A DNA stretch of 64,000 bases from Oscillatoria sp. FACHB-1407 (GTDB lineage Bacteria; Cyanobacteriota; Cyanobacteriia; Elainellales; Elainellaceae): contig NZ_JACJSA010000002.1 of the NCBI RefSeq assembly GCF_014697545.1, forward strand, positions 124,001 to 188,000, given 5' to 3'. Shown in pieces: positions 36,281 to 41,017 of this stretch. The notes beneath the pieces were generated by a model. It was given only the letters and a program-made list of their open reading frames with translations, ran no database searches and was not told where the DNA came from. Both the position numbers and the translations under genes were made by a program. Numbering within the stretch: position 1 is the stretch's first letter; each line of letters opens with the position of its first letter.

Positions 36281-37588
36281 TCAAGCCTGGGGATCAACAA
36301 CGGTTCCCATGAACAAGATCTGCCCCGTTTCGTTGTCCTGAATGGCGTAGAAGAAGGGGCGATCGACAATCATCTCAAACGGAGGACGGGTTGGAGCAGC
36401 GGAGCGGGAAATGCCAACGGCTGTCGATGCGGCTGCTTCAGTGCCTTCCTCATTGACTTCGATAAAGGTTTTGTGTTGCACAAAGCTAATCGCCGTGCGC
36501 TGGTTACTGATCCCCGAAAAGTCGGCTCTGGAGGGATCGAAGGCATTTGCCATGCCGATCGCTTTAAGCACATCACTTAACTCGATGCCATAGTTCAGCT
36601 TAAAGCGAGGCAACTGAAGAGAACCATTCTGGCTCGCAAATTGATAATTCCACTCTGTCCAGTTGTCGGCGGTGAGGGTTTGCACAAAAGCCGTGAGGGT
36701 TGAGCTACTGCGGGGCAAAAACACATACATGCTAAACCGTTCATTGCCATAGGGCAGGCTAATGGCTTGAAACTGAGCCGTCTCCAGGTAAAGGTAGGAG
36801 CCTCGCTGGCTCATCAGGGGATGTGGTTTTGTGGTGCCATTGGACAGATAGAAGGGACGATCAACCGTCGCACTGCGATCGAATGCTCTTGTCCAATTAC
36901 CCTTAAAGTAAATAGCGTTAATCAGAAATAATAGTGCATCGCGATCGATGCGGCTCAAAATTTCAGGAATTCTGCCCTGAGTGTTGCGATTGACCCAACT
37001 GTTGATTGTTGAGAGGGCACTGGGACTGGCAAAGTTGAGACTGGTAACTTCTGCCTGATAAGACTCCCGGTTGTAGCGTAAAAAGTCGGCGTTAAACGTG
37101 ATCCCCTCGCGACACCATAGGGAATTGGCGATCGCCAGTTGTACGTCAGGGTCAGCTGAATCCAGGCTTTGTCGCAGAGCCGCATTGGCTCGATTGACCT
37201 CCTGCAAGCTCATCCCCCGAAACTCCAGGGTTTGTGCCATTGCCCGCTGTGTCTCTGCGTTTGCCCCGTTGTAGGTCATGCTCAGGGCGATCGCCACACT
37301 GCTGGGTGAAACAGTCACGTTCCCAACGCCATTTTGCCGAATCAGTTCTGAAAACAGCTTGAAGCTGAAGCGGGTGTTTGCATCTATCAGGTCAGAGTCA
37401 ACCATAGGATAGGAGTACTGGGCGAGCCGTTGGGGTTGCTCTGGCAATGGTCGGACTGCGGGGCGATCGCCTCTGGTTTCAGTCGCTTCTACAGGCACAC
37501 CTGCCAGTGAACTCAATACCGCGATCGTCAGTACAACAATCCGACTAACTTTGATTAAAACAACCTTGGCAAAAATAGCCTGACCCAT
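36281..37588 (-). CDS. Secreted inhibitory-type serpin
   Basis: A serpin of about 435 residues with a signal peptide (ATG 37588; about residues 14-35, ending VPVEA). Serpin signatures include NVTVSPSSVAIALSMTYNGA, LFLINAIYFKGNW and DRPFFYAIQDNETGQILFMG. The reactive-centre loop has the inhibitory hinge EEGTEAAASTAV, followed by GISRSAAPT, which places Arg or Ser at the cleavage site. It should trap a chymotrypsin- or trypsin-like serine protease in the periplasm or outside. It starts 149 bases after the stop of a subtilase gene on the same strand, so an enzyme-inhibitor or self-protection pair is plausible. Bacterial serpins are uncommon. Confidence 0.92.
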   Translation of the reverse strand: MGQAIFAKVVLIKVSRIVVLTIAVLSSLAGVPVEATETRGDRPAVRPLPEQPQRLAQYSYPMVDSDLIDANTRFSFKLFSELIRQNGVGNVTVSPSSVAIALSMTYNGANAETQRAMAQTLEFRGMSLQEVNRANAALRQSLDSADPDVQLAIANSLWCREGITFNADFLRYNRESYQAEVTSLNFASPSALSTINSWVNRNTQGRIPEILSRIDRDALLFLINAIYFKGNWTRAFDRSATVDRPFYLSNGTTKPHPLMSQRGSYLYLETAQFQAISLPYGNERFSMYVFLPRSSSTLTAFVQTLTADNWTEWNYQFASQNGSLQLPRFKLNYGIELSDVLKAIGMANAFDPSRADFSGISNQRTAISFVQHKTFIEVNEEGTEAAASTAVGISRSAAPTRPPFEMIVDRPFFYAIQDNETGQILFMGTVVDPQA

Positions 37589-37736
37589 AGATGTGTTCCA
37601 CAACGCACTTTAGTTTAAGGGTTTCCATTGCTACATCTCTAGATCAGGAGGCGAAATATAAAGGATTGGAAATAGAGCGGCAGAAGCAGATGGGAAAAGA
37701 AACCCCTTCCTCCGCCCGCTTCTGCCTTTGCCACCA

Positions 37737-39350
37737 TTACCGAGCAGGCATCGCCCACCAGGCAATGGCATAGTTTTGGGTTGCGTCATTCACGCGATCG
37801 CGATACACCACCCGGATCTTATAGCGTCCTGTTTCAGGCACCTGCCGGAAGATATGCTCAACGCTATCGACCTCACTTACCGACGACCAGATACTATCTG
37901 CAACGTCCGTGTCTTCGGCTCGCATCAAGTAAATGTCGAGGTTATTGAGCCCTTGCTCGGTGAAGGTTTCGCCAATGTCGTATTGACCATTTCCATTGGC
38001 ATCCTGTAGCTCAACTGGACGATTCCACGCCAGTGTAACCGATACAAAACTCTCTCCCTGCAAGGGTTGCTCGATAACGTAATCACGGTAAGAGGTCGCG
38101 CCATCACCTTCCGAGACAGAGCTGTAGTCCCAACCGATCGCGGGTACAGGGGCATCGGAACTCCACTGCCCAGGGCTAAACTGCTGAATAGCCCGATAGG
38201 CATTGAGGTGACCCGTCCCTAACTCAGCATGGAGCGGAATCTTGGGATCACGATAGGCATCTGACTCTAACCAGTTGGTATTGGCTTGATCGACCAGTGT
38301 CCGGCTCATACCCAGCAGTAATCCGTCACCCCGGTCTTGAATCTTATCTGCCGAGTTCATTAACACTACTTTTGTCACCTGATGGCGACGGGCATCCAGT
38401 CCCCAGCGAGGTTGGCGTTCCCGAATCTGGCGATCGCCATACTCCTGAATCAATGCCACGGTTGCTGTGACATGGGGAGCTGAGAAACTGGTGCCTGTGG
38501 CGCGAGTCGGACTGCCATCGGGGTTCAACATTTCAATATTAGTGCCGGGGGCAACCAGGCTCACGGAGCGGCGTGGACCTACATTACTCTCGGAATCGGG
38601 CGATCGCCCCACAACAATAGTAGGTTCACTGCCCAAGTTGGAGAAATCAACTTTGCGAAATACTCCATCGACCTGAGTCGAGTTTGCGACGGTAATACCA
38701 TTGAAGTTGTCTGTGGGGATAGGAATACCGCCTCTACCCTGGTTACCAGCAATCACATACAGCACATCATGAATCTGGGCTGACCAGTCTACACACTGCG
38801 TCAACAGCGCATTGCCATCCAAAACCGCATCGGGACGAGGATCTTGCAGCAGCGATTCGCCAAAACTAAAGTTGGTTGCCCGGACATCGCCCCCATTTTG
38901 CAGAGCAACCGTTTGAGACGCGAGGCACTCCTGCGGTTGACCACTACGACGAATAAACCCAACCGCTGAGGAATAGAGCCGAGCACTGGGTGCAACGCCT
39001 GACACCTCTTTGTCCTGGCTGATCATGACACTGGCAACGTTAGCCGCATGACCGTCTACAAAATCATTGGCGCGTGCTAAAGCATCTTGGTGAAACAGCC
39101 GTCCGACGACAACATCTAAATTGGTTGCTCCTGCCTTGTCTAAACCAAATTGGGCAGGACGACCAATTTCGACTTGACCAATCGCGATTTTGGCACCCGT
39201 CAAGTTAAAAGGAGCAGCGCGGAGTCTAAGGGCATCAATGCCTCCTTCTCCGATCGATGAGACAGAAGCCAAGACTGGGGCACTTGCCAGGGAGGCAGCG
39301 ATTCCTCCAACGAACCATGCTAACCGTTTTGCCGTTCGCCATTGAGCCAT
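37737..39350 (-). CDS. Secreted S8 (subtilisin-like) serine peptidase with Glu at the Asp position
   Basis: A 537-residue exported peptidase (ATG 39350 with GGAG about ten bases upstream; signal about 8-28). The His (about 101, FVDGHAANVAS), oxyanion Asn (about 203, VIAGNQGRGG) and nucleophile Ser (about 288, GTSFSAPHVTA) are in place, but the first triad position, normally Asp in the I-D-T-G strand, reads GQVEIGRP (Glu61). A C-terminal beta domain follows, with an EF-hand-like loop DANGNGQYDIGE (about 450), and resembles pre-peptidase or P-type domains. A Glu could still serve as the acid. It is followed by a serpin gene. Likely roles are extracellular processing or nutrient peptide release. 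Confidence 0.9.
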   Translation of the reverse strand: MAQWRTAKRLAWFVGGIAASLASAPVLASVSSIGEGGIDALRLRAAPFNLTGAKIAIGQVEIGRPAQFGLDKAGATNLDVVVGRLFHQDALARANDFVDGHAANVASVMISQDKEVSGVAPSARLYSSAVGFIRRSGQPQECLASQTVALQNGGDVRATNFSFGESLLQDPRPDAVLDGNALLTQCVDWSAQIHDVLYVIAGNQGRGGIPIPTDNFNGITVANSTQVDGVFRKVDFSNLGSEPTIVVGRSPDSESNVGPRRSVSLVAPGTNIEMLNPDGSPTRATGTSFSAPHVTATVALIQEYGDRQIRERQPRWGLDARRHQVTKVVLMNSADKIQDRGDGLLLGMSRTLVDQANTNWLESDAYRDPKIPLHAELGTGHLNAYRAIQQFSPGQWSSDAPVPAIGWDYSSVSEGDGATSYRDYVIEQPLQGESFVSVTLAWNRPVELQDANGNGQYDIGETFTEQGLNNLDIYLMRAEDTDVADSIWSSVSEVDSVEHIFRQVPETGRYKIRVVYRDRVNDATQNYAIAWWAMPAR

Positions 39351-39488: not shown

Positions 39489-40196
39489 ATGATCACTACC
39501 GCATCTCGAAAACAAACCGTTGTTGCCCCATCCATCCTATCAGCAGATTTTAGTCGCCTGGGGGAAGAGATCAGGGCGGTTGATCAAGCTGGTGCAGATT
39601 GGATCCATGTGGATGTTATGGATGGTCGATTTGTACCCAATATAACGATTGGTCCCCTGATTGTCGAAGCGATTCGTCCTGTTACTCAAAAACCACTCGA
39701 CGTCCACTTGATGATCGTCGAACCTGAAAAGTATGTAGAAGACTTTGCGAAAGCCGGAGCAGATATCATCTCCGTTCACGCAGAGCACAATGCGTCCCCC
39801 CATCTGCACCGCACTCTCTGTCAAATCAAAGAGTTAGGTAAGCAGGCAGGTGTTGTGTTGAACCCCTCCACCCCGTTGGAACTGATTGAATATGTTCTGG
39901 AAGTCTGCGACCTGGTGTTGATCATGAGTGTCAACCCCGGTTTTGGAGGTCAAAGCTTTATTCCTGCGGTGTTGCCCAAGATCCAAAAGCTCCGTCAGAT
40001 CTGCGACGAACGAGGATTGGATCCCTGGATCGAGGTCGATGGTGGCCTGAAAGGCAACAACACCTGGCAAGTACTTGAGGCGGGTGCTAATGCAGTGGTT
40101 GCAGGCTCAGCAGTGTTCAAAGCCAAAGATTATGCAGAGGCGATCGCGGGTATCCGTAATAGCAAGCGTCCTCAACCTGAGTTGGTAACAGCCTAG
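39489..40196 (+). CDS. rpe: Ribulose-phosphate 3-epimerase
   Basis: A 235-residue TIM-barrel enzyme of the Calvin cycle and pentose phosphate pathway that interconverts ribulose-5-phosphate and xylulose-5-phosphate. Signatures are [52 protein letters not shown] and EVDGGL, which include the metal-binding His and Asp residues. The length is normal. It stands alone and divergent from the subtilase gene. AGGAAGG lies 14 bases before the ATG. The 3' side meets a heptamer array and a convergent gene. Confidence 0.97.
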
Positions 40197-40312: not shown

Positions 40313-41017
40313 CTACAAATATCCCTTTTGCCGCTGTTCTAAGATCGTATTGTTGCGGTTAAGGTTTTCGCGCATCGTCGCCAGTTCATCCAACCGAGTC
40401 TTGAGTTCAGCGGCCTTGCGTTTGAATTTTACTTTGCGCTCAAGAGCCGATCGCGCCAGGTGCTCTTCCCGTCGCTTCATGGCTGCGAGGGCTACTCGGT
40501 GCCAGTTATTCACCTCGGTCTGTGCCCGATTGTATTGCACCAGGAGTTGTGCCTCGGCGGTTGTAATGTTTTGGTGTGCTTGTTGAAACAGGGCGATCGC
40601 CTGATCAACTCGCCCTGTCCGAGCGGCTTCCTCTACCAACTGATTGGAATCAAACACATCGATACCAAGACTGCTGAGACCGTAGGCTTCCACTTGCTCA
40701 CTCCTGTTAATGCCCGTTTTGCACCACGTTGCGAAGTGTTCACAGTTGTTTGAAACCAGATTATATTGCTGTTCTCCGACCCGGCTTTCGGCCCGTTGTA
40801 TCACCACATCGGCGATCGCGTGAGTGGCGTAACGCTTGATATAAACCGGATTGCCCATCGAAAAAGCGGAATAGGACGTCCGCCGGACGGTTGCAATATC
40901 TTCGGCTTTACTGTAATGGATTACTGTACCATCTCCACAGTCGATGCCATGGTGTTCGTAGACACCATTCAACCCAAGAAAAGGGCGCATGACATAAATT
41001 TGATCACCGCGTGCCAT
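40313..41017 (-). CDS. LRAT-domain protein fused to a PspA/Vipp1-like helical region
   Basis: A 234-residue protein. Residues 1-105 are an LRAT (NlpC/P60-related) thiol acyltransferase or hydrolase domain with His23 (EHHGIDCG), His34 and catalytic Cys92 (NNCEHFATWC). Residues from about 125 to 232 are predicted to be helical. The segment AEAQLLVQYNRAQTEVNNW followed by RREEHLARSALERKVKFK strongly resembles the PspA/IM30 core, in which the EDLARAAL motif recurs. PspA/Vipp1 proteins bind stressed membranes. A membrane-recruited acyl transferase or phospholipase is the natural reading, but neither activity is proven. There is no signal peptide. The gene is flanked on both sides by heptamer arrays. 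Confidence 0.8.
   Translation of the reverse strand: MARGDQIYVMRPFLGLNGVYEHHGIDCGDGTVIHYSKAEDIATVRRTSYSAFSMGNPVYIKRYATHAIADVVIQRAESRVGEQQYNLVSNNCEHFATWCKTGINRSEQVEAYGLSSLGIDVFDSNQLVEEAARTGRVDQAIALFQQAHQNITTAEAQLLVQYNRAQTEVNNWHRVALAAMKRREEHLARSALERKVKFKRKAAELKTRLDELATMRENLNRNNTILEQRQKGYL

Follow-up and report, generated by a model that had tools for sequence, protein, structure and literature searches.

The subtilase and serpin genes of the window

The DNA analyzed here is a 64,000-nucleotide stretch (the window) of the genome of Oscillatoria sp. FACHB-1407, which measures 8.13 Mb in 66 contigs. On its minus strand, an open reading frame at 37737..39350 with an ATG start at 39350 encodes a subtilase-like (S8-fold) protein of 537 aa matched by PF00082, and 148 bp further on, an open reading frame at 36281..37588 with an ATG start at 37588 encodes a serpin of 435 aa matched by PF00079, the only serpin in the genome. 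This arrangement is as described in an earlier note on this DNA, which had placed a secreted S8 peptidase and a secreted serpin on the same strand; the Pfam matches agree with that description, both N-termini resemble Sec signals by eye, and export of the two proteins is predicted. The divergent neighbor of the subtilase gene, at 39489..40196 (plus strand), is a gene that we take to be rpe, i.e., to encode ribulose-phosphate 3-epimerase, and is also the most constant neighbor of the subtilase in other cyanobacteria. At 40313-41017 (minus strand), a single protein combines an LRAT domain with a subsequent PspA/IM30-like coiled coil, the coiled coil scoring just below the Pfam cut-off. The named loci related to that of the window are nearly all cyanobacterial.

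The gap between the two genes holds a strong RNA hairpin (37679..37726, minus strand) that follows the subtilase stop codon directly. It is a G+C-rich stem-loop with a further stem inside its loop, terminator-like or stabilising in character and with no long T run; the 106-nt stretch that contains it has a folding energy of -37.9 kcal/mol (z -2.3). Hairpins at the same place are frequent in the other loci where subtilase and serpin are linked, as judged against a coarse null model, and the gap across these loci varies from 22 to 982 bp. Scanning the region between the genes for promoter and terminator consensus sequences gave no more than shuffled sequence would. These features do not point to a simple two-gene operon, and read-through from the subtilase into the serpin may occur.

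Fold and active site of the subtilase

The subtilase scored 63.4 bits against PF00082 (Peptidase_S8; cut-off 21.8), in a poor match that leaves out the region of the catalytic Asp. A probable Sec signal peptide (residues ~1-28) precedes a domain of catalytic type (~34-395) and a C-terminal beta domain (~400-537); between signal peptide and catalytic domain no propeptide domain was recognised, and none of I9 type is visible. Compared to solved structures, the AlphaFold model of the protein (pLDDT 81.4, pTM 0.86) is most similar to the alkaline protease KP-43 of Bacillus (1wmd; Z 32.5, rmsd 2.8 over 361 residues), in a match that spans both the catalytic and the C-terminal beta domains, and it also superposes on subtilisin BPN' (1lw6; Z 26.7, rmsd 2.8 over 253 residues). 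With a score above the curated cut-off and a fold of the subtilisin type, the protein falls within S8.

Three of the expected active-site residues are in place and invariant in 35 of 35 diverse orthologues: the catalytic His101 (39048..39050, minus strand, as for all residues here), the oxyanion-hole Asn203 in the motif AGNQG (38742..38744) and the nucleophile Ser288 in GTSFSAPH (38487..38489). The canonical D-[ST]-G motif is absent, and where V-D-[ST]-G is usual the protein reads IGQVEIGRP, with Glu61 (39168..39170) at the place of the canonical catalytic Asp. All 35 orthologues carry this Glu. The motif across cyanobacterial orthologues, drawn from loci L031-L060, L141-L180 and L201-L220, is IGQVE[IVLP][GS]RP, and the Glu is invariant in every aligned sequence, even those below 50% identity. 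In the AlphaFold model, Glu61 lies at the end of a predicted strand (residues 56-62), and in most orthologues 40 residues separate it from His101; the equivalent distance from Asp to His in KP-43 is presumably 38. Strand position, invariance and spacing to the His suggest that Glu61 fills the role of the triad Asp. When the subtilase was aligned profile to profile with canonical S8 proteins encoded in this genome, the N-terminal strand was put in the wrong place, and the register of Glu and Asp stayed unfixed.

KP-43 has the canonical Asp-His-Ser triad, so that the window subtilase resembles its best structural match in fold but differs from it in having Glu at the Asp place. Glu can serve as the acid of such a triad, as in sedolisins. 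Since the canonical Asp motif is missing, we class the protein as a homologue with the S8 fold and an atypical triad rather than as a canonical S8 peptidase; it is probably an exported, KP-43-like protein with an unusual Glu-His-Ser site and is predicted to be an active peptidase. In one of the linked loci (L066:81-1672), the subtilase frame is split in two by a frameshift or an assembly error.

The serpin, its reactive-centre loop and known relatives

The serpin scored 398 bits against PF00079 (cut-off 27) over profile positions 2-370 of 370, i.e., as a full-length domain. Its nearest solved structure is miropin (5ncs, E 1.5e-73), followed by conserpin. The hinge of inhibitory type claimed for it earlier is present as EEGTEAAASTAV and conforms to the small-residue hinge E-E-G-T-E-A-A-A of inhibitory serpins (MEROPS I4), and by this motif the protein is clearly predicted to be of the inhibitory type. 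The reactive-centre loop, aligned to miropin and conserpin to set the register, extends from P17 to P1 as EEGTEAAASTAVGISRS (36401..36451, minus strand), which by counting places the scissile bond at S-A.

P1 is Ser and P2 is Arg in the window serpin, and most of its relatives have Thr at P1. Counting from the hinge puts Thr at P1 in 53/57 serpins linked to the subtilase and in 43/73 unlinked cyanobacterial serpins. These raw counts were suggestive of an enrichment in the linked group, which was gone after near-copies had been removed (p 0.05, 0.50 and 0.20 at identity thresholds of 80%, 70% and 65%, respectively). Thr is also found at P1 in all four serpins examined from genomes that lack the subtilase. 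Because P1 Thr is kept in the absence of the subtilase and does not differ significantly between linked and unlinked serpins, the residue that sets specificity appears independent of this subtilase. The host genome contains 8 S8 and 13 trypsin-family matches as candidate targets. Searched by motif for further S8 or S1 peptidase genes, the surroundings of the unlinked serpins yielded a few scattered S1-like matches and no second recurrent partner.

Some lineages have Arg, Leu or Ala at P1. At three loci from the family of the window organism in which the serpin lies away from the subtilase (L223, L231 and L232), P1 has apparently changed from Thr to Arg. In Okeania, five or more serpin genes with differing reactive loops lie in tandem (L126:4196-13113), and tandem serpins were seen at four further loci (L123, L124, L127 and L139). 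A serpin in a bin labelled KSB1 (L091:9863-11122) groups with the cyanobacterial serpins at 55% identity to that of the window, reflecting either transfer or a binning error.

Inhibition of subtilisin by prokaryotic serpins has been reported for the cellulosomal Clotm-serpin 1 of Clostridium thermocellum, for which control of the bacterium's own subtilisin-like protease was proposed (review PMC6718151), for miropin of Tannerella forsythia, which inhibits subtilisin among other proteases (PMC6718151), and for the archaeal Pnserpin (PMC5297747). Clotm-serpin 1 is borne on the cellulosome and its inhibition was measured, whereas the window serpin is a predicted inhibitor. Miropin, the closest solved serpin, aligns with the window serpin across the loop without a gap, but it is the protein of an oral pathogen directed against host and bacterial proteases and has KT at P2-P1 where the window serpin has RS. 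In the thaumarchaeal sponge symbiont Ca. N. ianthellae, serpins frequently adjoin S8A peptidases and were proposed to regulate the symbiont's own peptidases and/or those of the sponge (PMC6790972). There, as in the window, a gene for a predicted secreted S8 peptidase adjoins one for a predicted secreted serpin; unlike that host-associated archaeon with its 15 serpins and many S8A genes (PMC6790972), the window genome is that of a cyanobacterium with one serpin and with an orthologous gene order across eight families. The earlier description of such pairs as rarely described is accurate for bacteria, but S8A and serpin neighbors had been reported in archaeal sponge symbionts (PMC6790972). The arrangement is already known, and the pair in the window is a new and well-conserved instance of it. 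Our literature search for a serpin-subtilase pair in cyanobacteria found no paper on it; the sole functional hint was the serpin of Nodularia spumigena, the most up-regulated gene at low salinity (PMC5853447).

Gene order in cyanobacteria and the relation of the two genes

To measure linkage we used 78 well-assembled cyanobacterial genomes, from 38 genera, that contain both genes, and scored the genes as adjacent when they lay within 2.5 kb of each other. Absence of the linkage from relatives had been named in the earlier note as evidence against its reading; instead, the genes are adjacent in 24/78 genomes from eight families, with the same order and strand in all 24, the unlinked count possibly including some hidden paralogues or assembly breaks. 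Relative to an expectation of roughly 0.1% per genome under random placement, adjacency is far above chance, and it is not local. Named genomes with rpe(-) subtilase(+) serpin(+) in this order include those of Nostoc, Desmonostoc, Hassallia, Kastovskya and Coleofasciculus. In the serpin tree, linked sequences are scattered among unlinked ones with 13 label changes, as expected from an old linkage that has been lost repeatedly. A linkage found in eight families is probably longer-lived than that of a random gene pair, and weak selection may act on it.

Clustering of the neighboring genes showed that the pair belongs to a wider block, in which rpe, the subtilase and the serpin are joined by three more genes: one for an AI-2E family transporter, encoded on the opposite strand, one for a small membrane protein and one of LytR-CpsA-Psr (LCP) type. 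The other links in this block served as a control. The divergent rpe-subtilase order is kept in 54/78 genomes (33 of 38 genera) and the co-directional serpin-LCP order in 16/78 (12.5 of 38 genera, weighted by genus); the corresponding genus-weighted figure for subtilase-serpin adjacency is 13.7 of 38. Where the rpe-subtilase order is intact, subtilase and serpin are paired in 24/54 genomes, and where it is broken, in 0/24. The serpin has parted from the subtilase and still lies beside the LCP gene in eight genomes; a few others, which have no serpin close by, carry the subtilase next to the LCP gene. Linkage between subtilase and serpin was thus no stronger than linkage to other neighbors in the block, and the two genes were in no case found together after relocation (0/24). 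Selection for the pair should have left at least some cases in which both genes relocated jointly, so this count indicates that the pair never travels as a unit. Neither the subtilase nor the serpin is bound more closely to its partner gene than to the rest of the block, and the pattern is that of one old gene order breaking at random points. The serpin, AI-2E transporter, small membrane protein and LytR-CpsA-Psr gene follow one another at L112:11300-14650 and at L080-L119, L210, L222 and L227, and the serpin-AI-2E-LCP order is seen in many cyanobacteria, including some with the subtilase elsewhere; the small membrane protein had no Pfam match.

In a wider survey of 291 cyanobacterial genomes, the serpin was present in 112 and the subtilase in 180. 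Counted by hand, the subtilase occurs without the serpin in 87/180 genomes and the serpin without the subtilase in 19/112, so that either gene can clearly do without the other. The subtilase is found in 93/112 genomes with a serpin versus 87/179 without one, a difference confounded by small-genome lineages that lack both.

In the earlier note, the two genes were read as a possible pair for self-protection or regulated proteolysis. In such a pair, the serpin would be made together with the subtilase and would trap misplaced active enzyme in the periplasm. The serpin is of the inhibitory type and the linkage is conserved in relatives; the specific pairing is unsupported by our controls. Adjacency and shared direction in all 24 linked genomes of the eight families, a serpin hinge and P1 region that are well conserved, and archaeal serpins beside S8A peptidases as a precedent (PMC6790972) all argue for it, as does the lack of a visible I9-type propeptide, which may leave the subtilase without a built-in inhibitor. 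But the pair is never seen where rpe and subtilase have separated, serpin and LCP gene are linked about equally often when counted by genus, either gene of the pair often stands alone, P1 Thr persists where the subtilase is absent, and the hairpin and variable gap argue against one simple operon. A dedicated pair is therefore an unlikely reading, one that is possible but not favored on weak evidence for a functional pair. We regard as rather improbable a version in which the two genes form an ancient periplasmic module, with a propeptide-less Glu-His-Ser subtilase that would be held in check by the adjacent serpin, acting in trans where the genes have parted.

Two further alternatives were considered. 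If replacement of Asp by Glu had left the subtilase catalytically dead or very weak, the serpin would need other targets. The Glu shared by all 35 orthologues and the poor PF00082 match lacking the Asp region are consistent with this; the invariance of His101, Asn203 and Ser288 is, however, unexpected for a dead enzyme, and sedolisins show that Glu can be the triad acid; we hold this reading to be quite improbable. Alternatively, the serpin could serve mainly in defence against foreign proteases from grazers, lytic bacteria or competitors, its place beside the subtilase being meaningless. Its patchy distribution, increased copy number in some marine genera (five in tandem at the Okeania locus) and shifts of P1 to Arg, Leu or Ala in certain lineages are consistent with such a role, but most of the phylum shows a fairly well conserved loop, which is less expected in an arms race with outside enzymes, and we hold this explanation to be very unlikely.

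We consider it fairly probable that the two genes are neighbors through an eroding ancestral block, not as a dedicated pair, and that the serpin mops up several serine peptidases. On this account, the order rpe (divergent) - subtilase - serpin - [AI-2E transporter] - small membrane protein - LytR/CpsA/Psr would have been inherited and would be eroding piecemeal. The exported serpin would act as a suicide inhibitor: a serine peptidase would cut its loop near P1, the cut loop would insert into the serpin body, and the peptidase would be trapped as an acyl-enzyme. Most likely its job would be directed at several serine peptidases of the periplasm or cell surface, whether the cell's own or of outside origin, of which the neighboring subtilase may be one, as a target and not as a dedicated partner.

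Were the pair nevertheless real, bacteria would have a protease under serpin control whose endogenous partner is known, something for which prokaryotes offer hardly any example, and direct tests would be possible in Nostoc. As it stands, the locus cautions against reading a partnership into conserved adjacency alone. The most useful by-product of the analysis is a widespread family of cyanobacterial subtilases in which Glu invariably stands at the predicted place of the catalytic Asp, which poses a clean and testable question of enzymology.
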